Of a stretch of DNA of 64,000 nt, positions 1 to 64,000 are shown piece after piece. Each line of letters opens with the position of its first letter. Position 1 is the first letter of the stretch. The notes beneath the pieces were generated by a model. It did not search any database, was not told the origin of the DNA, and saw nothing but the letters and a program-made list of their open reading frames with translations. The stretch is from Pontibacter coccineus (GTDB taxonomy: Bacteria; Bacteroidota; Bacteroidia; Cytophagales; Hymenobacteraceae). The stretch covers positions 248,001 to 312,000 of the forward strand of contig NZ_JAUOTN010000001.1 of the NCBI RefSeq assembly GCF_030546575.1. The letters run 5' to 3'. The translations under genes were made by a program, and so were the position numbers.

Positions 1-66
1 TTAAAAGAAAGCGCCTTCCGGCATAAACTGAACAACATCTATAACCACTAAAACAAACTTAAAACT

Positions 67-903
67 ATGCCTTTTATCGAAACAGAAGACATCCAGCGGG
101 GAGAGAATGTATACCTGAACTACCAGGACTATGGCGACGGACAGCCCGTGATCCTGATCCATGGCTGGCCGCTTAGCCACAAAATGTGGGAGAACCAGGT
201 ACAAGCAATCGTTAAAGCTGGCTTTCGCTGCATTGCCTACGACCGCCGCGGCTTTGGTGACTCCGACCGGCCCTATCTCAACTACGACTATACCTCCCTG
301 GCGCGGGACCTTCGCGCCCTGATCGAACAGCTCGACCTGCGCCACTGCGTACTGGTGGGCTTCTCGATGGGCGGTGGTGAAGTGGTGCGCTACCTGAGCA
401 TGTACGGCAATGACCGCATCGACAAGGCGGTGCTTGTGAGCTCGGTTATCCCGATCGTAAAGAAAACTGAAAATAACCCGGACGGTGTGCCGGAAGACAA
501 ACTGGACGAGATCATGGAAGCGCTCGAAACCAAGCGAGTAACTTTCCTGGCGGAGTTCAGCAAGCAGTTCTACAACTCCAGCGAGAACAAAGACACGGTC
601 ACAGAAGAAGTGCTAAAATATGATTGGGCCATTGCCACAGCAGCCTCTCCGCATGCTACCATCGAAACCGCCAAGGCCTGGGCCAATACCGACTTCCGCC
701 CTGAGCTCCGCAACGTAATGGTGCCGACACTGATCGTGCACGGCGATGCCGACCAGATCGTGCCGATCAAGACCAGCAGTGACCAGTCTTCCAAAGAAAT
801 CCGAGACAACAAGTACATTAAAATAAAAGGGGCACCGCACGGCTTGTTCCTCACGCACAAAGAAGAACTGAACAATGCGCTGCTGGATTTCCTACGGCAG
901 TAA
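67..903 (+). CDS. Alpha/beta-fold hydrolase (arylesterase / non-heme chloroperoxidase-like)
   Basis: A 278-residue cytosolic hydrolase of the alpha/beta fold, probably an esterase of the group often labelled arylesterase or cofactor-free haloperoxidase. The oxyanion motif HGWPLS is at residues 32-37, the nucleophile elbow GFSMGGG places Ser100, the acid is in DADQ (Asp227/229), and the base is His258 in GAPHG. Length and motif order are complete for the family. No signal peptide is seen. The ATG at 67 follows an A-rich stretch without a Shine-Dalgarno sequence. It is monocistronic: it converges on the acylase gene, with a hairpin terminator between them. The substrate cannot be told from the sequence. 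Confidence 0.9.
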   Translation: MPFIETEDIQRGENVYLNYQDYGDGQPVILIHGWPLSHKMWENQVQAIVKAGFRCIAYDRRGFGDSDRPYLNYDYTSLARDLRALIEQLDLRHCVLVGFSMGGGEVVRYLSMYGNDRIDKAVLVSSVIPIVKKTENNPDGVPEDKLDEIMEALETKRVTFLAEFSKQFYNSSENKDTVTEEVLKYDWAIATAASPHATIETAKAWANTDFRPELRNVMVPTLIVHGDADQIVPIKTSSDQSSKEIRDNKYIKIKGAPHGLFLTHKEELNNALLDFLRQ

Positions 904-953
904 CCAATTCAATCGCAAAGAAAGGCGAGTGCTGCAGCAATTTTACCAAACAA

Positions 954-990
954 AAAGGTCCGGACTTTTCAGCCCGGACCTTTCTGTTTT
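954..990. terminator. Bidirectional intrinsic terminator
   Basis: A perfect 10-bp stem (954-963 with 974-983) with a 10-nt loop is followed by a T-rich tail on the plus strand and preceded by an A-run that serves the minus strand. It separates the convergent hydrolase (ends 903) and acylase (ends 1006) genes. Confidence 0.85.
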
Positions 991-1005
991 AGCAACTTAT
1001 ACCTG

Positions 1006-3295: not shown

Positions 3296-3340
3296 CGCGC
3301 TATACCTGAGGCAGACAATTATAGCTTCAGGTATAGCGCG
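3296..3340. repeat. Perfect 14-bp inverted repeat built from two GGTATAG motifs
   Basis: Bases 3296-3309 and 3327-3340 are exact reverse complements, separated by 17 bases. Each arm contains the dispersed octamer CTATACCT/AGGTATAG flanked by CGCG. A third copy follows at 3348-3355 in direct orientation. The pair can form a hairpin in RNA or single-stranded DNA. No T-run follows, so it is not a standard intrinsic terminator. Confidence 0.75.
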
Positions 3341-3388
3341 CGTTTACAGGTATAGACGAGTGCTTAGATTCTGGTCCGGGAGCTCTTT

Positions 3389-3510: not shown

Positions 3511-3610
3511 AAACCGCAGTAAATGGCAAATACGAAATAGCAAAGGCAGCTATACCTTCTGCAAGTTCAAAAGCAGCGCTACAGCCTACACCTTCACATT
3601 AGATAGAGCA

Positions 3611-5359
3611 TTAAATTCTGGCCTGATAGGTATAGAGTTGATAATACCTCCCCTGCTTCTCCAGCAGTTCTTCATGATGCCCCTGCTCAGCGATGCGGCC
3701 TTGCTCGATCACCAGAATCTGGTCGGCCTGGCGGATGGTGCTGAGGCGGTGGGCGATCACAAACGTAGTGCGCCCCTGCATCAGGGTTTTGAGGCTGGCC
3801 TGGATGAGACTTTCGCTTTCGGTATCGAGGTTGGAGGTGGCTTCGTCCAGAATGAGGATACGCGGGTCGGCCAATATGGCCCGTGCTATCGCGATGCGCT
3901 GCCGCTGCCCGCCTGACAGCTTCACGCCCCGCTCCCCTATCAGCGTATCCAGACCATGCGGGAAACGATCCGTGAATTCCTGCACGTGCGCTGCCTGTAC
4001 GGCCTGCATCAACTGTTCCTCCGTAGCATTGGGCCGCGGGAAAAGGATGTTCTGGCGGATGCTGCCCTCGAACAGAAAATCGTCCTGCAACACCACGCCC
4101 AACTGACTGCGGTAGCTTTGCAAACTGATACTTTGCAGGTCGTGGCCATCTACCGTAATTGTGCCACTGTCAGGATTCAGGAAAGAAGCAGCCAGCCCGG
4201 CAATGGTGGTTTTGCCAGAGCCCGATGTGCCTACCAGGGCCGTGACAGAACCGGCGGGTGCCCGGAAGCTGATCTCCTTCACCACATCTTTCCCTGATTC
4301 ATAGGCAAAAGCCACGCGGTCGAACACAATATCGCCGTGAATCTGATCGAGCCTGAGCGTACGGGTTCCGTGCGCATCCTCCAGCGGTGTGTTCAGGATT
4401 TCCTGGGTGCGGTCGAGGCCGGCGAAGGCTTCGGTAAACTGGCTCCCGATGTTGCTCATTTGCAGAATCGGGGCGATCATAAAACCCAGGTATAGCGTGA
4501 AGGCCAGAAAGTCACCAAAGGTCATCTCACCTTTCATGATCAGGTAGCCGCCAATGCCCATAATCCCCGCTGAGGCAATGCCCAGCAGCAAGGTAGCGGC
4601 CGAAGTCACCATACTGGTCGTGGTAAGACTCTGCTTCACATTCAGGAAAAGTCGCGTCACACCGTCTTCAAAAGTTTTGATCTCCTGCACCTCCGCATTG
4701 AAACCTTTGATCACGCGCACACCGCCCAGCGTCTCCGTCAGGCGACCGGTTACTTCGGCATTGATCACGCCACGCTCCCGGAAGATCGGCCTGATCTTAC
4801 CAAACGCTTTAAGGGAGATCACCCCAAAAATGGCCACCGGAATGAGCGCAAAGCCTGTCATGAGCGGACTGATGTAAATGAGCAGCACCAGGCAAATGAG
4901 CGAGGTCAATACGCCGCCTATCATCTGTGCAAAGCCGGTGCCCACGAGGTTTCGCACCCCTTCAACATCTGTCATGATGCGCGATACCAGTTCGCCGGTT
5001 TTGGTATTGTCGAAAAAGCGGATGGGCAGCTGCATGATGTGGCGCTGCACTTTGGCCCGCAATTGCGAAATCAGGTGCTGGGCCTCCACACTCAGTATTT
5101 GGGTGAGCGCAAAGGAAGTAACCGACTGGATAACAATCGCTAATAGCACGGCCCCGATCAGCCACTTGAGCATGGTGCTGTCACCCGTCGGAATTACATC
5201 ATCGATGAGGAACTTACTGGCACCGGGCAGCACCAGCCCGGCCAGGCGGCTGATCACGATCAGCACCAAACCGAACCCAAGGTACCTCCGCCGCGGCCAG
5301 ATGATGGTTCTGAATACTTCTGCAATCGTAACGTTCTGTAGTTTTTTTGATTTTGGCAT
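3611..5359 (-). CDS. ABC transporter, fused membrane and ATPase domains (MsbA/multidrug type)
   Basis: A 582-residue half-transporter in exporter architecture. A six-helix membrane domain (about residues 20-310) precedes the nucleotide-binding domain. Walker A GTSGSGKTT is at 377-385, the Q-loop near 425, signature LSGGQRQR at 481-488, Walker B ILILDE at 501-506 and the H-loop in VIAHRLST. Lipid or drug export is the family's usual role; the homodimer acts in the inner membrane. The substrate is unknown. The gene starts just downstream of the hairpin terminator at 5376-5414, so it has its own promoter. Confidence 0.92.
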   Translation of the reverse strand: MPKSKKLQNVTIAEVFRTIIWPRRRYLGFGLVLIVISRLAGLVLPGASKFLIDDVIPTGDSTMLKWLIGAVLLAIVIQSVTSFALTQILSVEAQHLISQLRAKVQRHIMQLPIRFFDNTKTGELVSRIMTDVEGVRNLVGTGFAQMIGGVLTSLICLVLLIYISPLMTGFALIPVAIFGVISLKAFGKIRPIFRERGVINAEVTGRLTETLGGVRVIKGFNAEVQEIKTFEDGVTRLFLNVKQSLTTTSMVTSAATLLLGIASAGIMGIGGYLIMKGEMTFGDFLAFTLYLGFMIAPILQMSNIGSQFTEAFAGLDRTQEILNTPLEDAHGTRTLRLDQIHGDIVFDRVAFAYESGKDVVKEISFRAPAGSVTALVGTSGSGKTTIAGLAASFLNPDSGTITVDGHDLQSISLQSYRSQLGVVLQDDFLFEGSIRQNILFPRPNATEEQLMQAVQAAHVQEFTDRFPHGLDTLIGERGVKLSGGQRQRIAIARAILADPRILILDEATSNLDTESESLIQASLKTLMQGRTTFVIAHRLSTIRQADQILVIEQGRIAEQGHHEELLEKQGRYYQLYTYQARI

Positions 5360-6385: not shown

Positions 6386-7840
6386 TTATTTTTGGGCGGA
6401 AGATTCGCGTTGGGGCTGTATGAGCTTTTCCAGGGTATAGCGCAGCACTTCGTCGTCTTCGTCGAGCAGGTGGTCGCGCACCAGGTGGTCAGGTATAAGA
6501 CCGGCCAGTTTCTCGTCGCCGTTCGGCCGCACAATGTAGCCTTTGGGCACCTTGAGTTCCACGCTCGTGCGGGGAAGCTGAAAACTGAATTGCGCGGCAT
6601 AGAGGGTCGGTGTGTCGCCGGTCTCCTCTCCCACGATCTCGCCAAAGCCATAGTCCTGGATCAGGGCGCCGCTCACGGCCGCCATAGAATAGGACTGGCG
6701 GTTGACGAGCACGTATACCTTGCCCTTGAAGCGCCGCGCCTCCGGCATGGGTTGCTGCATGGTTTGGGCATAGGCGAAGGTGCTGCCACCAGCATTTTCC
6801 AGTATCTGGCGGGTGTAGTCATCCGGTATAGCATCCGGGTACTGCTTTCGGGTCTGGGTCTTGAGCACCTCACTGGTTTTGACGGTGAATGCTGAAAACC
6901 AACGGAAAGGCTTGTCTGCAAAATAGGCGATCAGGTAGTCGCTGAAGGTATTGTGCCCGCCGGCATTGTTGCGCAGGTCCAGGATTAGGTACTTCGCCTG
7001 CTGGGTGTTGATGGCCGCAAACGCACTGTCCACGAAGGCTTTGAACTGCGCCTCCCCATCTGACGCGGGCGAACTGAAAGGACCCGGATGCAGGTACGCG
7101 ACATCCTCGCTATACCTGAAAGAGCGCTCGTTTTTGAGAATCTCCCCTCCCCGGCTGGCCTCGTAGCCCATCACGGTCATGGCGTCCAGGGTATGGGTGC
7201 TGCGCTTGCCACCTGCCTGTTTCACTTTCACGTTGAATTTTTCCTTCTGCCCGAACACGGCCCAGTAGTAGCGGGGGAAAGACCAGAACTCGAGTTTGGC
7301 ATCTTTGAAATAAGAGCGCTCCGCTGACAGGTAGGGATGAATAGCCGCCTGCAGCTTTCGGATGGGTTTGCCATTGAGCTCCAGCAGTTGGTCGCCTGCC
7401 TTGATGCTGGAATCCGGCATATAGCTTTTGCGCACAAAGGCCTTGCCGTCTTCAAAGGCCAGCTCGAGCGGAAACACCGTGCCACCCTGCGTCGCGTAAG
7501 TGATGTACGAAGCTGCCGGAAAATCCACTTCGCAGTGGCCCACGTTGCCAATCGCCAGTAGGCGTTGCATCAGCATGGTCGTCTCGAGCAGGCTCAGCGA
7601 GTCCTTCCGGATCGACTGCAACAGGTTATTGTATGCCGCATCGTAGACGGGCTTGCTCACATAGGCGTACAGGTTGTAATGTGCTTTCTGCAGCGTCTCG
7701 TAAGCATAGGCCATGTCCACTTTCACATCCGTTGCCGCGAATCTGATCGGCTTGTGCTGCGCGGTTAAATGCCCGGGCGCTGCCAGCACCAACAAGCACA
7801 GCAAGAGCTGAATCGATTTCATGTACACGTTGCTTTTCAT
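6386..7840 (-). CDS. S41 family (C-terminal processing) peptidase
   Basis: A 484-residue secreted protease. A signal peptide ends near AQHK at residue 30; the ATG at residue 7 (MKSIQ) is an equally good start. A PDZ-like segment at about 125-165 (DSSIKAGDQLLELNGKPI) precedes the catalytic domain. LILDLRNNAGG at 286-295 and RQSYSMAAV near 381-389 give Ser385 as the likely nucleophile. The later GEETGD replaces the bacterial Ctp GKxxxGK-type lysine, as in the IRBP/tricorn-like branch that uses Glu. It acts in the periplasm or at the envelope; the substrate is unknown. Confidence 0.85.
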   Translation of the reverse strand: MKSNVYMKSIQLLLCLLVLAAPGHLTAQHKPIRFAATDVKVDMAYAYETLQKAHYNLYAYVSKPVYDAAYNNLLQSIRKDSLSLLETTMLMQRLLAIGNVGHCEVDFPAASYITYATQGGTVFPLELAFEDGKAFVRKSYMPDSSIKAGDQLLELNGKPIRKLQAAIHPYLSAERSYFKDAKLEFWSFPRYYWAVFGQKEKFNVKVKQAGGKRSTHTLDAMTVMGYEASRGGEILKNERSFRYSEDVAYLHPGPFSSPASDGEAQFKAFVDSAFAAINTQQAKYLILDLRNNAGGHNTFSDYLIAYFADKPFRWFSAFTVKTSEVLKTQTRKQYPDAIPDDYTRQILENAGGSTFAYAQTMQQPMPEARRFKGKVYVLVNRQSYSMAAVSGALIQDYGFGEIVGEETGDTPTLYAAQFSFQLPRTSVELKVPKGYIVRPNGDEKLAGLIPDHLVRDHLLDEDDEVLRYTLEKLIQPQRESSAQK

Positions 7841-8001
7841 GCTGTCGCTTTTCTGTGGTTTATAAGCTGTTATCCCGGTTAGATCAAATAAGAGATAAGT
7901 GGCACCTGATTATTATGATTGATTTATAGCTGGTTACGGCTAAATATGCTTGATTAAAGCAAGTAGATGAGTCAGCAACCTACCCAGCCAGGTATAGCCG
8001 G

Positions 8002-9363
8002 TCACTTTTCAGAAACAAGCCGCTTTGACCAGGGCCAGCCATCGGCTTCCGGACGGGGCGTGACCCAGCTTTTAGCACCCCAGGTATAAGGCACAGCCGC
8101 CAGGTCCACTTTAGGATCAACGATGGGGTGCGCGGGGTAGCCGTTGAGGCTGAGACTGGAGACGGCGTACACCTGCGGATTGGCCATGCCCTGCTGCTCG
8201 AACTCCGTTTTCAGAAACTGCGCGAACTGCCAGATCATGTCCGGGTGCTTGGGTAGTTCTTTCTGCTGCTCCCATACCAGGTATGTACGCGGATACACAT
8301 ACACGGTCTGGTCCGTGGCGGGGTCTTTGACCAGGTAGTACACGTCGCCTCTTTTGGTGCGCAGCATCATGCGCCACGAAAAGCGGTGCCCTTCTTCGGT
8401 CCAGTTAACATCACCGGGAATGAAGAAATGCCGCAGCGGGAAAAGCAACTGAAAACCCAGGTATAGCACACAGAATTGTGCGCCCAGTCGCAGCAGCCAG
8501 CGAGGCTGTTTGAGGGGTGCATCCTGCAGGTATCCGGGGGTGATCTCTTTCCGGAAAATCCAGCGGGCGATCTGCTCCGGACTGAAGAAGAGCACATTGG
8601 CTGCGATCATAAAATAAGGGAACACCCCAACATGAAACACGGCCGAGTTGAAGATGTGAAAAGCGAATGCCACCCAGAAAGCCGCCGTGCGGGTGCGGGG
8701 CCAGAGCAGTGCAAAGCCGATCAGGAAATCAAACACAATGCCACCCCACACCACCATCTGTATCATGGCCGGCGTGTTCAGGTATGGCCCGATCACATAG
8801 AAGTGCGTTTTGGATGACATCCAGATGCTCATGGACTTGGCGGCCAGCCAGTCAGGTTGCAGCTTGGCCACCCCGGCATAAAAATATACCATTACCAGCT
8901 GCGCCCTAAAGAGCCAGAGCGTCCACTGCGGAGCCACCTCTGTTTCGAGCTCGGGTCGCCGCCGCACATCCAGGGAGTATTTGCGGTGGGCGGGCAAAAC
9001 AACCATCAGCCCGCTGATGAGCCAGATGAGGTAATGGTGGTTGAGGTAGTGCGTCTTTTCGCAGAAAAAACTGTAGCCAAAGAGCAAAAAGAACAGAAAG
9101 GAGCTGAGCTTGTAACGCCAGCCCACCATGATCAGGAAGCCCAGCAGCGCCATGAACAGGTATAGGTAGACCATGCCATTACCGGGCAGCGGCTTCATCC
9201 ACTCCAGCCCGATGTAGCCGAAGTGGTAGGTCGGCTCCACGTAATGCTCCTGCACCCAGTCAATGAGCACGGCACCGATCCCTTCGCAGAACATCAGCAA
9301 ACCGAACAGGATGCGGAAGTAAACCAGCGGATAAATGCCTATTGGATTGAGGAGCTGTTGCAT
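8002..9363 (-). CDS. HTTM / vitamin K-dependent gamma-carboxylase-like membrane protein
   Basis: A 453-residue polytopic protein with the HTTM (horizontally transferred transmembrane) fold. The N-terminal half has several membrane helices (for example about 10-35, 63-82, 85-100, 110-125, 150-165). HYLNHHYLIWL at about 105-115 and FYAGVAKLQPDW at 161-172 (Lys167) match the conserved signatures of vitamin K-dependent gamma-glutamyl carboxylase relatives. The C-terminal 150 residues are soluble, as in that family. The function of bacterial members is mostly undetermined. No adjacent candidate peptide substrate was identified. Confidence 0.8.
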   Translation of the reverse strand: MQQLLNPIGIYPLVYFRILFGLLMFCEGIGAVLIDWVQEHYVEPTYHFGYIGLEWMKPLPGNGMVYLYLFMALLGFLIMVGWRYKLSSFLFFLLFGYSFFCEKTHYLNHHYLIWLISGLMVVLPAHRKYSLDVRRRPELETEVAPQWTLWLFRAQLVMVYFYAGVAKLQPDWLAAKSMSIWMSSKTHFYVIGPYLNTPAMIQMVVWGGIVFDFLIGFALLWPRTRTAAFWVAFAFHIFNSAVFHVGVFPYFMIAANVLFFSPEQIARWIFRKEITPGYLQDAPLKQPRWLLRLGAQFCVLYLGFQLLFPLRHFFIPGDVNWTEEGHRFSWRMMLRTKRGDVYYLVKDPATDQTVYVYPRTYLVWEQQKELPKHPDMIWQFAQFLKTEFEQQGMANPQVYAVSSLSLNGYPAHPIVDPKVDLAAVPYTWGAKSWVTPRPEADGWPWSKRLVSEK

Positions 9364-9970: not shown

Positions 9971-10450
9971 TCAGAGCGCCACATGCCCGAGCAATCGGCG
10001 GAGCACCATGATCTGGCCCAGGTGATAGGCATTGTGCTCGGATACCAGCATGGCTTCGCGCAGGAGCGTCTGGCCGCTGCCATGAGGTATAGGCGCAAAG
10101 AGATCGTTATCCGTATCCTGCACCAACTGCACCATGGCCTCCAGGTCGCGCTTGATGGTTTGCAGGGTCTGGTCCAGGGCAGCCTGATCGGCTGGTGTCG
10201 CCGCATCGGTCCAGTAATCGTCCGGCCACTCGGGCATCTGGTAGTTGGGGTTGCGGCAAAAGTCGAGGATGTCGTACTGGGTAAAACGTAGGTGCTCGAG
10301 CAGCTGCCAGATGGTATAGGGCAGGTCCTTTACGTGCGCGCCCGCTTCCTGCACGCTGATGCCCTGCAGCAGTTCCCCATGCGGACGAAAGGCCTGCCCC
10401 ATCCGCATCAGTTTTTCCAGATGATCACGCAATTGCTGGTCTTCTTTCAT
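9971..10450 (-). CDS. DinB family protein (YfiT/BST-type metal-dependent four-helix bundle)
   Basis: A 159-residue four-helix-bundle protein of the DinB/YfiT superfamily. The three metal-binding histidines appear at His53 (LLEHLRF), His139 and His143 (SEHNAYHLGQ), at the usual spacing. Members include thiol S-transferases (bacillithiol, mycothiol) and damage-inducible proteins of unknown reaction. It is cytosolic. Nothing in the neighbourhood fixes its substrate. Confidence 0.88.
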   Translation of the reverse strand: MKEDQQLRDHLEKLMRMGQAFRPHGELLQGISVQEAGAHVKDLPYTIWQLLEHLRFTQYDILDFCRNPNYQMPEWPDDYWTDAATPADQAALDQTLQTIKRDLEAMVQLVQDTDNDLFAPIPHGSGQTLLREAMLVSEHNAYHLGQIMVLRRLLGHVAL

Positions 10451-10582: not shown

Positions 10583-11299
10583 TTAGTAACGGTCGTCGCG
10601 GTTACGGCCGTAGCCGCCGCCTTGTGAGCCATAGCCGCCGTAGTTGCCGGACGAGATGCGGTTGCTGCGGCTGCTGTCCAGGTCGGTGCCATAGTCATCC
10701 TCAAAGCTGCTGGTAATGCCTGCGTTCGGAATACCCCTGCTGGAGTGTATGTCCTGCTGGCCCATGCGCCCATAGTCTGAAATGCCGTAGCCCTCGCGCA
10801 TACGGTCCTGTCTCATGCGGCTACCCCGGCCTTGCTCCATCCGGTGGCTGCGATCCTGGCCCCCAAATTGGTCACGACTGCGCATGTCACGGTCACGGTC
10901 AAAATTTCCGGAGCCCTGGCTATACCTGCCTGATGCACCATAACGGTTCGCTTCAGACCAGTTTTGGTTTTGGTTGCGGCTCTCGCCCCAGCTACCTCTG
11001 TCACGGTCGCCGTAGTTCATGTTATAGTCGGAATCACGGTGCTCCGTGCCCCTTCCTTCGCGCATGCGTTCATAAGCATCGCCCATATTGCCTTTGTGGT
11101 AGCTTTGCCGCATGCCACCGCGATTGCGGCCCTGGTCGTAGCGGTCGTCCTCCGTATTGCGGTGATGGCTGCGATATTCCTGCTCAAATTCGTTGGTGAG
11201 GTTACGTGCACTGTGGTAGTGCTCATCGTTGCGGTTGTATCCGGCACCTTCGCTGTAATCGCGTTCGTAGTTGTGGCGATCTCTGTCTTGTCTGTCCAT
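10583..11299 (-). CDS. Disordered Arg/Gly/Tyr/Asp-rich hydrophilic protein
   Basis: A 238-residue protein with no signal peptide and no hydrophobic segment. It is dominated by Arg, Asp, Gly, Tyr, Ser, Asn and Gln, with many DRD, RYG, GRG and YGG groups and a Gly/Tyr-rich C-terminus (GNYGGYGSQGGGYG). The composition predicts an intrinsically disordered protein of the RGG/YG kind, able to bind nucleic acid or condense. It resembles the protein at 42684-43358 in composition, size, leader and terminator. The high charge also fits a stress hydrophilin. No enzymatic domain is visible. Confidence 0.75.
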   Translation of the reverse strand: MDRQDRDRHNYERDYSEGAGYNRNDEHYHSARNLTNEFEQEYRSHHRNTEDDRYDQGRNRGGMRQSYHKGNMGDAYERMREGRGTEHRDSDYNMNYGDRDRGSWGESRNQNQNWSEANRYGASGRYSQGSGNFDRDRDMRSRDQFGGQDRSHRMEQGRGSRMRQDRMREGYGISDYGRMGQQDIHSSRGIPNAGITSSFEDDYGTDLDSSRSNRISSGNYGGYGSQGGGYGRNRDDRY

Positions 11300-11375: not shown

Positions 11376-11891
11376 TCAGGTCTCTTTGATGCGGGAAGCC
11401 AGCACGCGGAACAGGATGTAAAGGAAGGCGAAAATTGCCATGGCGATCAGTGTCCAGAATTTCTGCTCGTTCTTATCCTGCCAGTAGTCACGCTCGCTTT
11501 CCGTTGACTTCAGTCTGCCGCGAATGGCCTGGTTCGCCAGTTGCTCGATCTGCAGCTCCCGGTGCAGGGAGTCAAGGGCCAGGGTATCACGCAGGTATAC
11601 GGTGCGGGTCACCACCCGGCTTTGGGCAGATGCGTAAGGTATAGCTGTTCGAGGCGCATCAGGTATAGCCGGTCTTCCTGGTTGGTATGTAGCGTAGAAG
11701 TTTCCTCCAATAGGACCTCCCGGGCTGAGGGCTGATCTGGAAGGGCTGAGGACAGGTTTGGGATGAACCACGGGCGCATACAGTTTGGGCACCCTTTTGC
11801 TGGCAGCAGGTATAGCGTCCTCATCAGCCCTTGTCTGGCGCTGGGTGGCGCAGGCACTGAGCAGCAGCAATAAAACCAGGGTCCATCTCAT
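11376..11891 (-). CDS. Lipoprotein with C-terminal membrane helix, unknown
   Basis: A 171-residue protein with a lipoprotein signal (lipobox LSAC, Cys14). A Pro-rich linker (about 35-85) leads to a coiled-coil-like stretch (about 100-135, LHRELQIEQLANQAIRGRL) and a hydrophobic helix near the C-terminus (147-163), ending in basic residues. Two membrane attachments in so short a protein are unusual. It is divergent from the histidine kinase gene, sharing a 188-base intergenic region. The function is not recognised. Confidence 0.7.
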   Translation of the reverse strand: MRWTLVLLLLLSACATQRQTRADEDAIPAASKRVPKLYAPVVHPKPVLSPSRSALSPGGPIGGNFYATYQPGRPAIPDAPRTAIPYASAQSRVVTRTVYLRDTLALDSLHRELQIEQLANQAIRGRLKSTESERDYWQDKNEQKFWTLIAMAIFAFLYILFRVLASRIKET

Positions 11892-12079
11892 GCGGCAGGA
11901 TCGTCAATTTAGAAACGCTATACCTGTCGCCTATACGCATGCGAACGCCCGGTGGGTACGAAAATGGAGGAGCGTCCCTTGTTATTTTTTTTATCCCGGC
12001 GTCATCTCTTTTAACAAGTTGACGTTTGAATTGTCTTTAAGAATAAACATATTTAAAAAAATCAGGTTCACGTTTTCGA

Positions 12080-14641: not shown

Positions 14642-14696
14642 CAGGCTGCCGTTTTTTTCAGAACTTGCAACGGTGCAACTGCGCTATACCTAGCTT

Positions 14697-28328: not shown

Positions 28329-28335
28329 CCTATAC

Positions 28336-47093: not shown

Positions 47094-47178
47094 GGTTGTT
47101 CTTTTTTTCCTTTTGCTTACGGGAACAGGCGCCCAATAGATAGGAAAATTTCACAAAAGCTATACCTGCATCCGGTGG

Positions 47179-52920: not shown

Positions 52921-53280
52921 AGTTTAAAGAATTGTGATTTTATTTTTCCGCTTTTGTAATCGTGGGGTGTAAGCTAAAGACACACATTCCGCTGCACAGT
53001 TGCATCCGCACCAAATTAAATCCGCCAGCTTGCAGCACCTCTCCACAGGGGAGACGACCGGGTCGCGAAAACCTTACAGGGTTTTCAACTTATTTTTCAC
53101 AGGGGCTGCCAAGGGCTGAGCAACACCCGGGTGATGTACACAAAAGGAAACTCCGGTTTTGGAGAAGGTTACAAAATTTCCTGTTCTTTTTTGCAGGCAT
53201 AAGGTATAGAGAGCTCCCCCGCTCGCTAAGCATACCTGATGATGCGATGAACGGAGGCGCTTCCATCATTTGTCACCGAA
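52921..53280. other. Intergenic region, no feature recognised
   Basis: 360 bases between two minus-strand genes. The right part is GC-rich; one motif copy lies at about 53203. The promoter of the receptor gene should be near 52925-52960 but no TAnnTTTG box was found. Confidence 0.4.
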
Positions 53281-55701
53281 TCAGTCGAAGCGCAGGTTTG
53301 ACACCGGATTAGCCATGGCCGCTTTCAGCGCCTGGTAGCTGATGGTAACAAAGGCGAGAACAGCCGCAAATAACCCGGCCACCAGAAATATCCATACCGG
53401 TATATCGATGCGGTAGGCAAAGTCCTCCAGCCAGGTGCTCATGGCATACCAGGCCAACGGAAATGCGAGCAGCGCAGAAACCACGATCAGCATCAGAAAC
53501 TCTTTGGAAAGCAGCGTCACAATGTCTTTGTTTTCGGCGCCCATCACCTTGCGTATACCTATCTCCTTTTTACGGCGCTCTGCTGCGTAGGCCGCCAGGC
53601 CAAACAACCCGAGGCAGGCCACAAAAATGGCTATACCTGTAAAGATCCAGAGCAGCGACTTTAACTTATCCTCCGCCTTGTACATCTTCTCAAAGTTGTC
53701 ATCCATGAACATGTATTCAATCGGGTATTCAGGCGAAAATTTACTCCACACTTCCTTTACATGATCGATCGAGCTGGCCATACTCTCCGCTTCCATTTTC
53801 ACGGCCACTTTTATGTTTGCTCCCGGGTATATCTGCAGTACCGTTGGGTCTACCTTATCATACAAGCTCTTGAAGTGAAAATCCTTTACAACCCCAATAA
53901 TTTTGCCTTCCTTCAGGGAGTCCTGGTTATCCCAGGTTGGCCATAAAAGTGTCTGACCGATCGCTTTCTCCGGAGTCCCGTAGCCTAATTCCTTCACGGC
54001 AGTCTCGTTGATCATGAAGGCATGATCTGCATCCGTTTTATATGCTTTGGAAAAAGGCCTGCCCGTTATTGTTTTTACATTGAGGGTGTTCAGGTAATCG
54101 AAGTCTATCATCAAGATGGTTGTGGGTTGGCGTATCTGCTCCCCATCTCTGGGAACAATGATGCCATCTCCGGCTGTGGCGTCTCCCGGAAAACCATAGC
54201 CTATGGAAGCGCTTTTGATTCCGGGGGCTTTCACTAACTCGTTCTTAAAAGTTTCGTAGTTGGTGAACATATTGTCACCCCGCATCTGGAAGAACATGAT
54301 CTGTTCCTTGTCGAAGCCCAGGTCCTTGTTGTGCAGATAAGACACTTGTTTATACACCACCATGGCACTTATGATCAGGAATATGGATAGGGCAAACTGC
54401 AGAACGATCAGTCCGTGCCGCAGCCACTGGATTCTCCCCAGCTTACTGTCTACCACAACGGCACTTTTCAAAACACTAACCGGCTTATAGCCAGACAGCA
54501 CCATGGCGGGATAGATGCCTGCCAGAAAACCAACCACAAGTGTTAATGCCAGCAATAGCAAAAGGAGCCATGGTTCCGTGAAGACATTAAAGCTCATACT
54601 CTTCCCTGTGAATGCGTTTAAGGAGGGCAGAAGCAAAGAGGTGAGTGCAGCAGAAAAGATAACACTGATCAGCGTGAGCGTGACTGTCTCAAAAAGAAAC
54701 TGCAACATGAGCTGGCCCCTGCTGGCGCCTACCGCTTTTCGTACCCCCACTTCCTTGGCCCGCTGCATGGACTTGGCAGTGGCCAGGTTAACAAAGTTGA
54801 AGCAGGCAATGAGTAGGATGAAGATGGCTATAACCCCAAGCGCTCTGACATAAGTTATATTGCCTCTGATCGACTGGTCGTATTTAAAGCTGGCGGAGTA
54901 CAGGTAAACCTCCCGCAGTGGCTGCAGAAAAGGAAGGTAATCATGTGGCTTATTGTTGTCCGGGTCGATCTGCTTCGCTACAATCTCTCTGAATTTGGAT
55001 TGCACAAACGCAGGATCTGATCCTTCTTTTAACTTAACATACGTATAAAACTGCTGCCAGCCCCAGCTTTTCATCCTTTCGGCAGGTAAATCGGCCGCCT
55101 TCATAGGCAGCACAAAATTGACAGGCAGATGAAACTTGTCGTTGCTCTCAAACACCCCTTTTACAAGGAGCGTGGATTTGTTCAGGGCAATCTCTTTACC
55201 TACGGGGTTTGCATCTCCAAAAACCCTTTCAGAAAATTTATCAGAAATGACGACTGAGGCAGGATCATCCAATACCTTTTCGGGAGAGCCATATTTGAAT
55301 TTGAGCTGGAAAATATCGAAGAACTGGGGGTCAGCAATGAACATCCCGGTTTCATAGATTTGCTTCTCCCCTACCTCTATGAGCGTTTTAGAGTCAAAGG
55401 TTACCATTAAGATACGGACCACCGTCTCTACTTCAGGTATACTCTGCTCCAGGGTTGTACCAAACATGGGCGGTACACTGGCAATAAAATCGCCCCCGTT
55501 TTCGCCGGTCTGTTGGTTATAAACACGGTATACCTGTTCCCCTTCCGGCAGAAACTTATCGTACTGCAGTTCATCGTGCACAAACAGGCCAATAAGCAGA
55601 CAGGCGGTAATGCCCAGGGCCAGCCCTGCTATGTTGATAAAGGAAAAGCCTTTGTGCCTTAATAAATTCCGATAGGCGGTTTTGAAATAGTTTCTGAACA
55701 T
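53281..55701 (-). CDS. MacB-like ABC transporter permease (two-unit FtsX type)
   Basis: An 806-residue permease with two FtsX units. The N-terminal MFRNYFKTAYRNLLRHKGFSFINIAGLALGITACLLI opening is typical of Bacteroidota FtsX-like permeases. Each half has a membrane helix, a periplasmic MacB-type domain, and three further helices. The first half ends ERAKEVGVRKAVGASRGQL-like, the second has AAERRKKEIGIRKVMGAENKD. No ATPase is adjacent. It is divergent from the NtrC-type regulator and shares its 233-base intergenic region, so control by that system is plausible. The ATG at 55701 is preferred over 55710. Confidence 0.88.
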   Translation of the reverse strand: MFRNYFKTAYRNLLRHKGFSFINIAGLALGITACLLIGLFVHDELQYDKFLPEGEQVYRVYNQQTGENGGDFIASVPPMFGTTLEQSIPEVETVVRILMVTFDSKTLIEVGEKQIYETGMFIADPQFFDIFQLKFKYGSPEKVLDDPASVVISDKFSERVFGDANPVGKEIALNKSTLLVKGVFESNDKFHLPVNFVLPMKAADLPAERMKSWGWQQFYTYVKLKEGSDPAFVQSKFREIVAKQIDPDNNKPHDYLPFLQPLREVYLYSASFKYDQSIRGNITYVRALGVIAIFILLIACFNFVNLATAKSMQRAKEVGVRKAVGASRGQLMLQFLFETVTLTLISVIFSAALTSLLLPSLNAFTGKSMSFNVFTEPWLLLLLLALTLVVGFLAGIYPAMVLSGYKPVSVLKSAVVVDSKLGRIQWLRHGLIVLQFALSIFLIISAMVVYKQVSYLHNKDLGFDKEQIMFFQMRGDNMFTNYETFKNELVKAPGIKSASIGYGFPGDATAGDGIIVPRDGEQIRQPTTILMIDFDYLNTLNVKTITGRPFSKAYKTDADHAFMINETAVKELGYGTPEKAIGQTLLWPTWDNQDSLKEGKIIGVVKDFHFKSLYDKVDPTVLQIYPGANIKVAVKMEAESMASSIDHVKEVWSKFSPEYPIEYMFMDDNFEKMYKAEDKLKSLLWIFTGIAIFVACLGLFGLAAYAAERRKKEIGIRKVMGAENKDIVTLLSKEFLMLIVVSALLAFPLAWYAMSTWLEDFAYRIDIPVWIFLVAGLFAAVLAFVTISYQALKAAMANPVSNLRFD

Positions 55702-57293: not shown

Positions 57294-58638
57294 GAACCTG
57301 GAGTGGGCGCTGATTGCCCGGATAATGCTGTTGCTTATCACCATGAGCATCCCAGCTTTTGTCGTGGCCCAGGGCTGGTCGGAGGCGCTGGTGTTCTGGC
57401 TGCCTGTATTTGTTTTTCAGGTACTGGACCTGCTACGCTTTTTGCGCAAAACGCAGACAGAATTCAATCAGTTTATCCAGTCAGTACATTACCGTGACTT
57501 TTCCCGGCATTTTGATGTGCAGCAGGCCTATACCCAGTTGCAGCCACTCCGCAAGGGCTTCAACGAGATCAACTCCACTTTTAAAACCATCACGCTCGAG
57601 AAAGAAACCCAGTACCATAACCTGCAGAAAGTGATGGAACTGGTGGAAACCGGTATTCTGTCCTACAACATGGAGAACGGGGAAGTGGTGCTCATGAACG
57701 AATCGCTCCGCAAGCTGCTGCATGTGCCCTTCATGAAAACGATCCATTACCTGTCCAAGCGGGATAAGGCGCTGTACGAAGCCATACTTGGCCTGGAGCC
57801 CGGCCATACCCGCATCGCAACCGCGCATACCACCCATTTCGAGAAGCACACCACCAAAGTGCTGCTCTCCGCCACAGCCCTGCAAAACGAAGGGAACAGG
57901 TATAAACTGGTTGCCTTCCAGAACGTGAACGAAGCGCTGGATGAGACGGAGTCACAGGCCTGGCAGAAGCTGCTGAACGTGCTCACGCACGAGATTATGA
58001 ACTCGGTCGCCCCCATCTCCTCCCTGGCCGACACCCTGAAAAACCGCCTGCAGGAAACCCGGCCCACAGGTATAACTTCAGAAGACCTGGAGGACCTGGA
58101 GGTAGGTATAGGCACGATCAAGCAACGAAGCGAAGGGTTGCTGCGCTTTGCCGAAACCTACCGGAATCTGAACAGGATCACCAAACTGAACCTGGACACG
58201 GTATCTGTAAAAGACCTCTTCGCCAACCTGCAGCGCCTGATGCAGCCAACCCTGGCGCAAAAGGGTATACAGCTGGAAACGAACCTGGCCAATCCTTACA
58301 TTTCGCTGCATGCCGACCCTACCCTGCTCGATCAGGTGCTCATCAACCTGCTGGTGAATGCCATGGAAGCGGTGAAAACTGTGCCGGCTCCGCAGATAAC
58401 GCTGGCTGCCTATACCTCTCCGGACGATAAAACGGTCATCAAGGTCATGGACAATGGCATCGGCATGTCTCAGGAAGTACAGGAGAAAATCTTTATACCT
58501 TTCTTTAGCACGCGCAAGCAAGGCAGCGGCATCGGCCTGAGTCTATGTAAGCAGATCGTGCTGTTGCACCGGGGAACCATACAGGTACAGTCGGCTCCGG
58601 GAGAGGGCACCACTTTTATGCTGCGTTTCGGGCAATGA
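57283..58638 (+). CDS. Sensor histidine kinase (NtrY-like)
   Basis: A 451-residue kinase with two N-terminal membrane helices (about 8-28, 32-53) and almost no periplasmic loop. A PAS-like stretch (about 115-210: METGILSYNMENGEVVLMNESLRKLL) follows. The HisKA phosphoacceptor is His236 in LTHEIMNSVAPISSL, the ATPase domain has NLLVNAMEA, DNGIGM and GSGIGLSLCKQ. It pairs with the overlapping NtrC-type regulator (11-base overlap), forming one two-component unit that senses a membrane or cytosolic signal. Confidence 0.92.
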   Translation: MGFRNLEWALIARIMLLLITMSIPAFVVAQGWSEALVFWLPVFVFQVLDLLRFLRKTQTEFNQFIQSVHYRDFSRHFDVQQAYTQLQPLRKGFNEINSTFKTITLEKETQYHNLQKVMELVETGILSYNMENGEVVLMNESLRKLLHVPFMKTIHYLSKRDKALYEAILGLEPGHTRIATAHTTHFEKHTTKVLLSATALQNEGNRYKLVAFQNVNEALDETESQAWQKLLNVLTHEIMNSVAPISSLADTLKNRLQETRPTGITSEDLEDLEVGIGTIKQRSEGLLRFAETYRNLNRITKLNLDTVSVKDLFANLQRLMQPTLAQKGIQLETNLANPYISLHADPTLLDQVLINLLVNAMEAVKTVPAPQITLAAYTSPDDKTVIKVMDNGIGMSQEVQEKIFIPFFSTRKQGSGIGLSLCKQIVLLHRGTIQVQSAPGEGTTFMLRFGQ

Positions 58639-58690: not shown

Positions 58691-59326
58691 ATGTTCCTGC
58701 TCCAGCATCCTGCACTTTTGCTCCTCCTTACTGCCACCCTCTTCGAAACCCTTGCCAATCTGGACCTGGCCACACTGCAGCTGCTGAATGGCAGCCGGGC
58801 AACAGACCTGGACTTCCTGCTGCTCACGTTGACAATTACCGCCTACGGACTTGGTGCCCTGGTACCAATTTGCCTATACCTGGCGGGGCATTTCAGGCGG
58901 ATGGTATCGCTCAAGCTGAAGGCCTACCAGTATGTATTTGCCATGGGGCTCAACATTCTGTTTATCGGCTTGTTGAAGTATACGGTCGATCGCCCCCGCC
59001 CCTTTGTGACGCACGATACCATTGAGCAGCTTGCGGAGGCCAGCAGTCCCTCCTTTCCTTCCGGCCACACGGCTTATGCGTTTACAGCAGCCGTCGTGCT
59101 TGTGCTGATGTTCCGCAACCCAGCCCTGCGCAGCCTTATCGTGACCTGGGCCTTGCTCGTTGCCTATTCCAGGCTGGCCCTGGGTGTGCACTACCCCAGC
59201 GACGTGCTCGGCTCCATGCTACTCGGATCAACCGCCGACTTCCTCTCTACCTACACCTTCCGGAAACACCGGGAGCAGTTCTATACCTTGTTTAGGTGGG
59301 GCCGGAATTTAAGGATCGTGCGCTAG
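58691..59326 (+). CDS. PAP2-family phosphatase
   Basis: A 211-residue membrane phosphatase with about five helices. All three PAP2 catalytic motifs are present: KYTVDRPRP (K-x6-RP), PSFPSGHT (PSGH), and YSRLALGVHYPSD (SR-x5-H-x3-D). Members dephosphorylate lipid phosphates such as phosphatidate or undecaprenyl diphosphate. It follows the kinase by 52 bases and may belong to the same transcript. A GGTATAG motif lies just after the stop. Confidence 0.92.
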   Translation: MFLLQHPALLLLLTATLFETLANLDLATLQLLNGSRATDLDFLLLTLTITAYGLGALVPICLYLAGHFRRMVSLKLKAYQYVFAMGLNILFIGLLKYTVDRPRPFVTHDTIEQLAEASSPSFPSGHTAYAFTAAVVLVLMFRNPALRSLIVTWALLVAYSRLALGVHYPSDVLGSMLLGSTADFLSTYTFRKHREQFYTLFRWGRNLRIVR

Positions 59327-59750
59327 GTATAGCAGTCGTCTTTAAGGGGTTACCTGTCAGCTCCAGCCAGCTAAATGCTGCTCCGATGCTACCAACATCC
59401 GTTTTTTGAAACGTATAGTTGCGTTTATAAACCCTTAAAGACTCTTCCTAGATTCGTTGCCCATCATTCTGGCTATTTCCTGGCGATAGAAAATGTTGAT
59501 TCCACTCAGGGGAAAAACTACTAATCCACCCTAATCACTTGATTTACAAAATCTTTACCTCTATGGTTAGCCTCGTGCTGGAAAAATAATGAGTCAGTTG
59601 GAGAGTTGCGGTGAAAGCACTATATTAGTAAAGCACTATGGAAGCGATCAGGTTTTGAAGCAATTGCTGTGGCACTCCACACATAGTGCAGATAAGCCGA
59701 ATAGACTTCCGTTTAGCAACTAGTTGGCAGTAAGAAAGATTATAAAAGAA
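59327..59750. other. AT-rich intergenic region at the edge of the accessory block
   Basis: About 420 bases, clearly more AT-rich than what precedes. It holds an 8-bp inverted repeat (59633-59640 with 59682-59689) with a 41-base spacer and no supportable gene. It may be the first part of the imported block. Confidence 0.5.
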
Positions 59751-61423: not shown

Positions 61424-62311
61424 ATGGACGAGATCAAGAAAGAAGACATCAAGCAGGAAGTGTTTGACCTGTACGACGACTATGCCCACAACCGCATCAA
61501 CCGGCGGGATTTCATGCAGAAGCTCTCGATCTATGCGGTGGGTGGGCTAACGGTTGGTTCGCTCACAAGCTTTCTGATGCCGGATTACCAGAACAAAGTT
61601 CAGTTGGCAGCTAACGATCCGCGCATCATTTCGGAGTATATCACCTACCAGTCTCCCAAAGGTGGGGGACCGATAAGGGCGCTCCTCTCGATGCCGGCTA
61701 AGGCGAAGAAAAAACTCGGAGGCATCGTGGTTGTGCATGAAAACAGGGGACTCAATCCGCATATCGAGGATGTGGCCCGTAGAGCGGCCCTGGCCGGATT
61801 TATCTCACTCGCACCGGATGCCCTCACTCCGCTGGGCGGCTATCCGGGTACCGATGACGAAGGCCGTACCTTGCAGAGCCAACGCGACCGCAACGAAATG
61901 CTCGAGGACTTCATAGCAGCGCACGACTACCTCAAAAAACACAAGAATTGCAATGGCAAAGACGGAGTCGTGGGCTTCTGCTTTGGCGGCTGGATCTCGA
62001 ACATGATGGCTGTGCGTATACCTGATTTGGCGGCAGCCGTTCCGTTTTACGGCGGGCAGGCGCCGGTGGAGGATGTGCCACAGATCAAAGCCCCCCTCCT
62101 GCTACACTACGCCGAGCACGACGACCGCGTAAACGAAGGCTGGCCAGCTTACGAAGCGACTTTGAAAGCGAACAACAAGAAGTACACCGCCCACTTCTAC
62201 CCAGGCAGCAACCACGGCTTCCACAACGACACCACGCCGCGCTACGATAAAGCAGCAGCTGAACTGGCCTGGCAACGCACTGTCGATTTTTTCAATCAGT
62301 ACCTGAAATAA
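61424..62311 (+). CDS. Dienelactone hydrolase family protein, Tat-exported
   Basis: A 295-residue hydrolase. A twin-arginine signal, NRRDFMQKL (about 26-34), precedes a hydrophobic helix (36-52), so export folded by Tat is predicted. The catalytic Cys is Cys186 in GFCFGG, with Asp in HDDRVN and His in SNHGFHND; HENRGL supplies the oxyanion region. DLH enzymes open enol-lactones; the real substrate here is unknown. GC content returns to the normal level. The GNAT gene follows after 33 bases. Confidence 0.9.
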   Translation: MDEIKKEDIKQEVFDLYDDYAHNRINRRDFMQKLSIYAVGGLTVGSLTSFLMPDYQNKVQLAANDPRIISEYITYQSPKGGGPIRALLSMPAKAKKKLGGIVVVHENRGLNPHIEDVARRAALAGFISLAPDALTPLGGYPGTDDEGRTLQSQRDRNEMLEDFIAAHDYLKKHKNCNGKDGVVGFCFGGWISNMMAVRIPDLAAAVPFYGGQAPVEDVPQIKAPLLLHYAEHDDRVNEGWPAYEATLKANNKKYTAHFYPGSNHGFHNDTTPRYDKAAAELAWQRTVDFFNQYLK

Positions 62312-62344
62312 CGATTTACAACGGGCTATACCTAAAGCAGGCAA

Positions 62345-62851
62345 ATGATCAACTTCAAACTACGCCCATGGACCATAAAGGACCTCGACAGTCTGGTGCG
62401 GTATGCTGACAATTTTAACATAGCCCGCAACATGGCGGATGTTTTTCCGCATCCCTATACTTACGAGAAAGGCAGGGCATTTATAGAAATGGCAAACCAA
62501 AGTAACCCGCCCAACATTCTGGCGATCGAGGTCGAAGGCGAAGCCGCCGGAGGTATAGGGTTACATCCACAGCAGGACATCTACCGAAAAAATGCCGAAA
62601 TGGGTTATTGGCTGGCCGAGCCTTTCTGGGGCGAAGGCATCATCACGGAGGCTATTCGCCAAATGGTGGACTACGGCTTTGCAAACTTGGATATCACGCG
62701 GATTTACGCCCGGCCCTTTGGGTACAACATCGGCTCGCAGCGGGCACTCGAGAAAGCTGGTTTTGTGCTGGAGGCGAAACTGGAAAAGACCTTTTATAAG
62801 AATGGGGAATACCAGGATGAGTTGATCTATGCGGTGAGGCGGCCGGCGTAA
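62345..62851 (+). CDS. GNAT-family N-acetyltransferase (RimJ/RimL type)
   Basis: A 168-residue acetyl-CoA-dependent transferase. LRPWTIKDLDSLVRYADN opens the fold, EMGYWLAEPFWGEGIITEAIRQMVDYGF carries the acetyl-CoA-binding pattern, and IYARPFGYNIGSQRALEKAGF is the RimL-like NxxSxxxLEKxGF motif. Targets may be a ribosomal protein N-terminus or small amine. Separated by 33 bases from the hydrolase and probably co-transcribed. Confidence 0.9.
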   Translation: MINFKLRPWTIKDLDSLVRYADNFNIARNMADVFPHPYTYEKGRAFIEMANQSNPPNILAIEVEGEAAGGIGLHPQQDIYRKNAEMGYWLAEPFWGEGIITEAIRQMVDYGFANLDITRIYARPFGYNIGSQRALEKAGFVLEAKLEKTFYKNGEYQDELIYAVRRPA

Positions 62852-62971
62852 TGGCAGTGGTATAACACAAGGCAACTAGCGGAAAAGCGTAACAAGCTTA
62901 TGTATTAACAGCTAGGTATATATGCTTTAATAGTTATATTTACACCAGTATCATCTACCCTTTTTCAGCCT

Positions 62972-64000
62972 ATGAGAACAACTTTACTGCTGCTAATTTC
63001 TTTTTTCTTCATCTGCATCCAATCTAATGCCCAGATTGCCAACTTTGATCTTTACCAAAAAGTAGGGATAACGGTAGGTCTGGAGAACGACATTGCAGTT
63101 GACTCCGAGGGAAACATATACCTACCTCACCAAAAGTTGCAAAAGTTTACTCCCGAAGGCAGGGTTATTCATAAGGATCCCTTATGCGACATAGATTTCA
63201 GGGGTTATAATAGCTATAGAATAGCTTTCGACGCAAAAGGCAATCTATATGCACTCAGCTATTCCGTCTCAAAACTTTCTAAATACAACAAGGAGGGGAA
63301 GCTGCTTTTTGAGATCGGAACAAGGGGGAAAGGGCCGGGCCAATTCAGTTATCCGAATAATATTAAAGTAAACTCCAAGGAAGAAATTTTTGTAGCGGAC
63401 AGCGGAAACGGCCGAATTCAAAAGTTTGACAAGGAGGGGAATTTCCTGCAGGAAATTCCGCTTGTTACCGGCAGCATTAGCCTGGATGCACACGACAATT
63501 TATTCGCGCTTGACGTTCCAAATAAAAGAATCATCAAGTACTCTCCCCAGGGTGAGCAGTTACTGGTATTTGGCAACAGCGAGGATGTCGGCACCAGGCT
63601 GAATGGTCCGGTTCAGCTTGATGTAGACAAGAAAACGGGGCAAGTGTATGTGTTTGACAACCTAATAAATGGTTATGGTTACAAAGGCTTCCTTGTGTTT
63701 GACGCGAACGGAAACTTTGAAACTAAATCTATTCTGGACTCTGGGCCCGGACGCTTAATGGGATCAAGTCATTTGATAACCGTTAATCACGAAGGCAATA
63801 TCCTGATAGTTGATCAAAGCCATCAAATCGGCAACAGTCAAATATTTCTTTATGATAAAAAAGGGCAATACCTGGACTCGTGGGGAAGAGAATGGTCACC
63901 AAAGGAAATTACTCTGGATGAAGATGACAACATTTACATTATAAACTCTACCGGTAAGGTAACGAAGTTCGATCATGAGGGTGAGGTTGTCATGGAATTT
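62972..64000 (+). CDS. Secreted six-bladed beta-propeller (NHL-like) protein, partial at 3' end
   Basis: An open frame of 343 codons that runs off the window. The signal peptide MRTTLLLLISFFFICIQSNAQ leads into repeats such as NDIAVDSEGNIYLPHQKLQKFTPEG, NNIKVNSKEEIFVADSGNGRIQKFDKEGNF and EGNILIVDQSHQIGN, the blade pattern of NHL / 6-bladed propellers. Such secreted propellers are common in Bacteroidota. C-terminus and any further domains are not visible. Confidence 0.85.
   Translation, partial: MRTTLLLLISFFFICIQSNAQIANFDLYQKVGITVGLENDIAVDSEGNIYLPHQKLQKFTPEGRVIHKDPLCDIDFRGYNSYRIAFDAKGNLYALSYSVSKLSKYNKEGKLLFEIGTRGKGPGQFSYPNNIKVNSKEEIFVADSGNGRIQKFDKEGNFLQEIPLVTGSISLDAHDNLFALDVPNKRIIKYSPQGEQLLVFGNSEDVGTRLNGPVQLDVDKKTGQVYVFDNLINGYGYKGFLVFDANGNFETKSILDSGPGRLMGSSHLITVNHEGNILIVDQSHQIGNSQIFLYDKKGQYLDSWGREWSPKEITLDEDDNIYIINSTGKVTKFDHEGEVVMEF

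Follow-up and report, generated by a model that had tools for sequence, protein, structure and literature searches.

DNA-uptake sequences, which pose the standing puzzle of why a cell should mark its own DNA thousands of times, have been described chiefly in two families of proteobacteria, both of which rely on type IV pili. The uptake signal sequence (USS) of the Pasteurellaceae is found genome-wide, in and between genes, and has lineage variants, traits that it shares with the word described here, although the two words themselves are unrelated. The word in question belongs to Pontibacter, a soil and marine bacterium, and came to light in a 64-kb stretch of the P. coccineus genome (contig NZ_JAUOTN010000001.1, positions 248,001 to 312,000; the whole of this stretch is referred to below as the window). 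An original prediction made from these letters had likened the octamer AGGTATAG to uptake sequences or to the cyanobacterial element HIP1. The first half of that comparison held, whereas the likeness to HIP1 proved weaker, and we consider it reasonably probable, judging from sequence patterns, that AGGTATAG(C), which the genome contains 1,416 times as CAGGTATAGC, is a DNA-uptake sequence in Pontibacter.

The accessible text on the DNA uptake sequences (DUS) of the Neisseriaceae (PMC3630211) describes clade-bound dialects around a constant core, 943 to 5,918 copies, a species that uses two dialects at once, and dyads of overlapping copies. The Pontibacter word resembles these ComP-bound sequences in being short and non-palindromic, in having hundreds to thousands of copies and an invariant core, and in showing dialects a few letters apart that follow phylogeny, a bilingual genome and dyads. 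We regard this recurrence of Neisseriaceae traits (clade-bound dialects, constant core, two-dialect genome, dyad pairs) as the strongest argument for an uptake role. The phylum and the word are different, and the Pontibacter core is TATA where that of the DUS is CTG. Taken together, the features of the word fit an uptake sequence better than HIP1, Chi or the FtsK-orienting polar sequence (KOPS).

Copies in the window and across the genome

The original prediction had counted some sixty copies of the octamer, against about two expected by chance, and had seen no clear strand bias. The excess turned out to be larger than first noted: AGGTATAG occurs 69 times exactly in the window, 35 times on the plus and 34 times on the minus strand, against a mean of 0.88 and a maximum of 4 in 100 dinucleotide shuffles of the same DNA. 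The expectation rises to 5.6 under a third-order Markov model whose training sequence was the window, motif included. Many copies were also rightly said to extend to CAGGTATAGC, since 30 do so in the window where the same model expects 0.86. This consensus reflects a C that precedes the octamer in 40 of the 69 copies and a C that follows it in 45, with no other conservation of the flanks. Across the whole 4.66-Mb genome, CAGGTATAGC was found 1,416 times (785 on the plus, 631 on the minus strand) against 7 for the reversed word, and AGGTATAGC was found 2,540 times against 31, an enrichment over the reversed word of approximately 80- to 200-fold. The counts are thus not within a few-fold of expectation, an outcome that would have refuted the original prediction, and over-representation by orders of magnitude, as would be expected of an uptake sequence, is seen in the other dialects likewise.

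The copies lie both in and between genes, as had been claimed. With genes called by a longest-ORF heuristic, 39 of the 69 are within open reading frames (ORFs) of more than 80 aa, 24 are between them and 6 are on an ORF edge. Exact matches on the plus strand are located at 3329..3336, 3348..3355, 3628..3635, 4488..4495, 7990..7997, 8459..8466, 9158..9165, 10085..10092, 11637..11644, 11661..11668, 11808..11815, 14819..14826, 14873..14880, 21858..21865, 22021..22028, 31211..31218, 32934..32941, 34434..34441, 36583..36590, 36712..36719, 38022..38029, 39808..39815, 41675..41682, 43861..43868, 44426..44433, 44651..44658, 44836..44843, 45683..45690, 46145..46152, 49414..49421, 49622..49629, 53202..53209, 58104..58111, 59325..59332 and 62551..62558. 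Those on the minus strand are located at 288..295, 3300..3307, 3550..3557, 7110..7117, 10920..10927, 11918..11925, 14684..14691, 15199..15206, 15346..15353, 17771..17778, 18315..18322, 24640..24647, 27955..27962, 28330..28337, 30751..30758, 30937..30944, 30969..30976, 34016..34023, 34844..34851, 34875..34882, 34986..34993, 36639..36646, 41109..41116, 41180..41187, 43519..43526, 43578..43585, 44892..44899, 46165..46172, 47160..47167, 53631..53638, 58410..58417, 58874..58881, 59281..59288 and 62326..62333.

The copies at 46145..46152 (plus) and 46165..46172 (minus) are the first and second arms of an inverted pair that had been singled out. The pair is present but does not represent a trend: 464 kb of P. 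coccineus sequence contain 50 pairs of adjacent copies separated by less than 60 bp, of which 36 are direct and 14 inverted. Fourteen of the direct pairs overlap at a 6-bp step (AGGTATAGGTATAG), the commonest short spacing in this sample. In addition, five copies of CAGGTATAGC stand head to tail with a 13-bp period at the end of one contig (G000:C1:219602-219663), as if the assembly had broken within a longer tandem array.

Dialects within Pontibacter and the turnover of sites

The survey covered 204 Hymenobacteraceae genomes, 50 of them from Pontibacter, the genus of the window, and 154 from five other genera. AGGTATAGC, which we call the AGG dialect, was abundant in 12 of the 50 Pontibacter genomes (1,365-2,768 copies, against 57-297 in the other 38) and occurred at most 62 times in any of the 154 genomes of the five other genera. 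The suggestion of a lineage-specific element in Hymenobacteraceae was therefore right as to specificity, but the lineage is a single genus. A weak excess was noted outside Pontibacter in one genus (g5, G131-G146), where AGGTATAGC occurs 18-54 times against 5-25 for the reversed word, a ratio of up to 7.7.

A k-mer scan of 20-40-kb stretches revealed that many other Pontibacter use a different word in the equivalent role. AAGTATAAA (the AAG dialect) is abundant in 23 of the 50 genomes (1,062-4,337 copies; 84-572 in the other 27), and AACTATA[AG][ACT] (the AAC dialect) in 8 (2,089-10,204 matches; 162-1,096 in the other 42). The AAC counts are inflated because the palindrome AACTATAGTT is matched twice: overlapping palindromes of this kind are common in the dialect (52 in 200 kb), and 476 matches in 200 kb of genome G174 correspond to 424 places. 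With carriers defined by more than 1,000 (AGG), 900 (AAG) or 1,500 (AAC) matches, there are 39 carriers in total, four of which use both the AAG and AAC words, and 11 of the 50 genomes that lack any dialect. In the mismatch profile the TATA core is strict, and the dialects vary at letters 2, 3, 8 and 9. Thus, the octamer is iterated as first described, but what was taken for a single word is one of three dialects, which was not visible from one window.

A phylogenetic analysis of ComEC (midpoint-rooted, 49 of the 50 genomes, G186 being left out for its broken ComEC) was used to place these labels. Eleven of the 12 AGG genomes (the twelfth being G186) form one clade with support of 97/99, and seven of the eight AAC genomes form another with support of 100/100, the eighth (G195) lying outside it, while AAG genomes are scattered through the remainder. 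All five labels together require 7 changes on the tree, against 26.2 when shuffled. The non-carrier state accounts for 4 changes on the best tree, only 1 of which is forced by well-supported branches. On our reading, AAG looks ancestral for most of the genus, with AGG and AAC derived. In eight of the 11 non-carriers AAGTATAAA is 2.5-6.2 times more frequent than its reversed word, as relics would be, and in the other three 1.4-1.8 times; this excess is partly background, because AGG genomes, which do not use AAGTATAAA, also show approximately 2-4 times.

No other dialect was seen in the 11 non-carriers in 20-60 kb each, save for a weak excess of GGTATGG and GGTATAA in G187 (L115, L116, L193), perhaps a fading fourth dialect. 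An excess of TAGGTATAAGG in G192 resembles a coding repeat with a period of approximately 234 bp. Across 194 genomes of the order, four of them Pontibacter, AASTATARM was raised ten-fold in one, the carrier G180 (4,467 against 447), and the top ratio outside Pontibacter was 2.0 (G239, 218 against 108). Among other Bacteroidota, short samples from 59 of 64 loci (L017-L080; five of less than 9 kb were left out) were scanned and the best 25 of the 59 considered. Of nine leading words that were checked, from six of these loci together with L034 and L050, eight were clustered and one, ACTCATAC in L050, was spread over 8 places. Single 20-kb stretches of other Hymenobacteraceae genera (L126 of G012, L127 of G029 and L125 of G010) hold other raised and spread words, CCCTACCC (12 against 0.9), ACCTAGCT (12 against 1.4) and the palindrome CGCATGCG (6 places), which may be other iterated elements. 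Genome size also differs between the 39 carriers (3.8-5.5 Mb, mean 4.59) and the 11 non-carriers (4.9-6.5 Mb, mean 5.71; Mann-Whitney p 3.5e-6). This link is a lead only: it is not phylogenetically independent, carrier status changes as few as 4 times on the tree, and an independent-pairs test is powerless.

The fate of individual copies was followed in homologous regions, one set of which was fetched using the anmK gene of the window (26281..27480, minus strand). This gene is outside the motif system and served purely as an anchor, its product being 92-96% identical to proteins of P. amylolyticus, P. virosus, P. indicus, P. ramchanderi and one further Pontibacter. When checked for conservation across relatives, the copies were well retained: around anmK, nine AGG relatives keep 85 of 135 aligned copies (a sum over pairwise comparisons), against 14-38% identity for all 8-mers, although the weakest (L012) keeps 2 of 8. 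Indels were found at 8 of the 135 sites, and the remaining losses are substitutions. Four non-AGG relatives (L007, L008, L010, L011) retain 0 of 13.

Comparisons across dialects extend this picture. At AGG sites, in ungapped alignments, AAG genomes hold AAGTATA[AGC] in 53/745 cases around comEC and 27/110 around anmK, against 3/443 in non-carriers, while AGGTATA[AGC] itself persists in 43/745 and 33/443 respectively. AAG sites hold the AGG word in 35/899 and 16/81 cases in AGG genomes and in 13/1,111 in non-carriers; within dialects, retention is 1,349/2,210 for AGG and 1,879/3,541 for AAG. Homologous places therefore often bear the version of the mark that their own genome uses. The pattern is less clear for AAC, whose sites in AAG genomes hold the AAG word in 19/818 cases and still the AAC word in 177/818.

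Placement, orientation and depletion on plasmids

Enrichment relative to genes was pronounced. In the 464 kb of the P. coccineus genome the density is 0.72 copies/kb in genes and 2.26/kb between them, with the highest value (3.77/kb) between convergent genes, and in P. kalidii (G165) the figures are 0.62 and 2.89/kb, so that intergenic density is three to five times genic density. Within 361 genes there are 274 copies, whereas shuffling synonymous codons leaves an expectation of 10.85, and this excess extends to all five reading frames that avoid an in-frame stop, on which ground a peptide motif was set aside as the cause. Relative to the gene, 126 copies point in the same and 159 in the opposite direction in P. 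coccineus, and 106 and 107 in G165. The word is a DNA-level, nearly orientation-free mark.

A very small mobile unit that inserts itself, or a signal in transcription or RNA such as a promoter, terminator or pause site, would account for the crowding of copies between genes and above all in convergent gaps. We regard either as scarcely probable at all, since sites turn over by substitution with few indels, both orientations occur in genes, more than half of the window copies (39/69) lie inside ORFs, and inverted pairs show no excess in the AGG and AAG dialects; the last of these findings led us to reject terminator hairpins.

Orientation with respect to replication, called from the sign of GC skew, was near even: of 392 copies in 20 stretches sampled from the G165 chromosome, 214 are on the leading strand, as are 239 of 476 matches in 10 G174 stretches, although GC skew is close to zero in three of the latter. 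These two chromosomes represent the AAG and AAC dialects, and no complete AGG-dialect chromosome was included. Neither replication nor transcription thus imposes a strong bias, as would be expected of an uptake sequence. Chi and KOPS are examples of octamers over-represented in other bacteria, and an oriented signal of this type, read by RecBCD/AddAB or by FtsK, could explain the lean of the P. coccineus genome to one strand (785 against 631). However, the near 50:50 split in both chromosomes and the approximately 80- to 200-fold enrichment speak against such a signal, which we set aside as very improbable, in agreement with the original prediction that the element is not Chi-like.

The copies are spread along the chromosome, at 10-29 per 20 kb in the G165 stretches and 29-62 matches in those of G174. 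A spread over the chromosome, a higher density between genes and depletion on plasmids are also what one might see at binding sites for a chromosome-organising or nucleoid protein, selected for folding or segregation. Yet the sampled G165 and G174 stretches show no polarity or favoured region, 11 of the 50 genomes manage without the word, and a folding site need not range from near background to thousands of copies, nor switch dialect, within one genus, which makes this explanation unlikely in our view.

Plasmids offered a further contrast. Three Pontibacter plasmids with transfer genes were assigned via TraG, namely the second contigs of P. actiniarum (G147), P. akesuensis (G148) and P. kalidii (G165), of which 200 of 204 kb, 100 of 116 kb and all 73.8 kb, respectively, were examined. 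They hold 14, 3 and 3 copies of AAGTATAAA, where 54.1, 40.2 and 47.5 are predicted from chromosome density, and are thus 3.9, 13.4 and 15.8 times poorer than their own chromosomes. Such scarcity on mobile or foreign DNA is a further trait expected of uptake sequences, and the depletion speaks against any bias of mutation or repair that acts throughout the cell.

The plasmids also bear on the comparison with HIP1. According to the accessible part of PMC4390886, cyanobacterial highly iterated palindromes (HIPs) are GC-rich palindromes tied to methyltransferases, and alternate words replace HIP1 in some genomes. A counterpart in Pontibacter would have an orphan methyltransferase marking the word and mismatch repair converting near misses, with dialects arising as methyltransferases change. 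The iterated octamer, its genome-wide reach, its replacement by alternates and the overlapping AACTATAGTT palindromes formed by part of the AAC copies all suit this idea. The Pontibacter word, however, is TATA-centred, and neither AGGTATAG nor AAGTATAA is palindromic; moreover, a cell-wide repair bias should reach plasmids, which are 4-16 times poorer. The likeness to HIP1 is weaker because of this lack of symmetry and because of the poor plasmids, and we consider a HIP1-like origin unlikely, if a little less so than a nucleoid site.

Copies are also scarce in low-GC DNA. In 4-kb windows of the P. coccineus genome, the lowest GC class (0.383-0.470) carries 0.58 copies/kb, against 0.90-1.19/kb above 0.494. 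Density rises with GC (Spearman 0.26, p 0.003; control words -0.15, p 0.10), which runs opposite to chance expectation, as AT-rich DNA should favour a TATA word. The correlation does not reach significance in G165 (p 0.21), where scarcity is confined to the lowest tenth (0.50/kb). Among the largest empty stretches are SusC/D-like genes and, at C4 9,426-16,207 of the joined stretch, an island rich in AT (GC 0.38) that, on our reading of the proteins, seems to encode defence functions.

Competence genes and the case for an uptake sequence

Family searches identified ComEC (PF03772) and DprA (PF02481) in 50 of 50 Pontibacter genomes and, in 49 of them, a ComEA-like HHH_3 protein encoded by an intact frame of 304-346 aa (it is in pieces in G166). 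The P. coccineus HHH protein has 319 aa, three HHH_3 stretches and a predicted N-terminal membrane anchor. Secretin (PF00263) was found in 0 of 50 genomes, and the pilus or secretion ATPase family (PF00437) only as stretches of approximately 38-66 residues, above the cut-off in 3 of 50, with no convincing ATPase among them; ComP itself was not searched for. The type IV pilus route was therefore dropped and a pilin receptor of the ComP type appears unlikely, which sets Pontibacter apart from the Neisseriaceae. For the Pasteurellaceae USS, a minor pilin of the type IV system is predicted to be the receptor (PMC12616744).

A closer parallel may be Riemerella anatipestifer, a bacterium that, as far as the accessible text of PMC8459023 goes, takes up DNA without pilus homologs by means of ComEC, DprA, ComF, RecA, an HHH protein and predicted outer-membrane and surface proteins. 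ComEC, DprA and the predicted periplasmic HHH protein are described there as essential, the outer-membrane protein RA0C_RS04915 is reported only from Flavobacteriaceae, and the term uptake sequence does not occur in that main text. Pontibacter resembles Riemerella in family content, through its ComEC, DprA and protein with three HHH_3 stretches. The question of a candidate natural-competence system is thus partly answered: genes for the inner machinery are present, and no receptor was found. DUF5689, the family of the Riemerella-type surface protein RS04920, is present in 22 of 50 Pontibacter genomes (17 of 39 carriers and 5 of 11 non-carriers) and was rejected as the receptor, as it does not track the motif. 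In P. coccineus its gene (L240:9711-10940) directly precedes a SusC/SusD-like pair, a setting that, on our reading, may point to nutrient uptake rather than competence.

Decay of these genes was seen in a few genomes. In G166, a single-contig assembly (L238, L258, L259), comEC, dprA and the HHH gene are all broken while the neighbours of comEC are intact, and this joint decay suggests that the three serve one dispensable pathway. In G186 (L233) comEC and dprA are broken, again with intact comEC neighbours, and the HHH frame has 304 aa; in G184 comEC is split over two frames. The AAG count of G166 is 1,270, against 2,067-4,337 in eight relatives of its subclade. Motif erosion in G166 was not relied on, as its near-miss ratio of 0.66 is the lowest in the subclade (0.75-1.30) and not in the genus.

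An uptake sequence would work as follows. A surface receptor would bind free DNA bearing the word, and the marked DNA would be brought into the cell and recombined, so that copies would multiply and persist through the more frequent uptake of marked DNA. Dialects would have arisen when the receptor changed its preference, and non-carriers would have lost that preference. Since neither a secretin nor a convincing ATPase of a type IV pilus was found in the genus, we propose that a protein other than a pilin, located in the outer membrane or on the surface, would act as receptor, perhaps within a pilus-free machinery of the Riemerella kind. We infer that the comEC, dprA and HHH genes make Pontibacter competent and that uptake prefers the word.

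Several observations weigh against this reading. No receptor was found, DUF5689 being the single candidate tested. All 11 non-carriers keep intact comEC, dprA and HHH frames, so that these genes do not predict the motif, and G186 keeps 2,664 AGG copies despite its broken comEC and dprA. The low count of G166 proves little alone, because G147, with intact genes, has only 1,304, and the near-miss ratios of G172 (0.55) and G180 (0.60), also with intact genes, are below that of G166. The strand counts of CAGGTATAGC in P. coccineus (785 against 631, the orientation of the contigs being unknown) and the orientations in its genes (126 against 159) are not quite even. The P. actiniarum plasmid, with 32 copies of AAGTATAA against 5 reversed, is poor in the word but not empty, and plasmid scarcity would also be expected if plasmids were newcomers under another site-accumulating mechanism. 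The pairwise site comparisons are not phylogenetically independent. In the comEC regions of non-carriers, AAC words persist at 76/371 ungapped homologous sites where decay is expected, above AGG (33/443) and AAG (37/1,111); a few constrained sites counted many times may be the cause. Finally, a literature search found no paper joining Pontibacter and natural competence and none joining DNA uptake sequences and Bacteroidota, most subscription papers and bioRxiv lying outside its coverage; nor did the leading results of wider queries describe the octamer or the dialect words, which is no proof of absence.

On a bolder version, which we advance tentatively but which may well be so, Pontibacter evolved an uptake password with a non-pilin surface receptor independently of the Neisseriaceae and Pasteurellaceae, and changes in that receptor produced three dialects and a bilingual stage, and with them sexual barriers within the genus. 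If the word is an uptake sequence, it would be a third, unrelated case, and one without pili. The 39 carriers and 11 non-carriers, with their graded counts and bilingual genomes, would then allow the origin, spread, change and loss of a password to be followed. They would also provide a route to an outer-membrane DNA receptor of Bacteroidota, which would be expected to track dialect.

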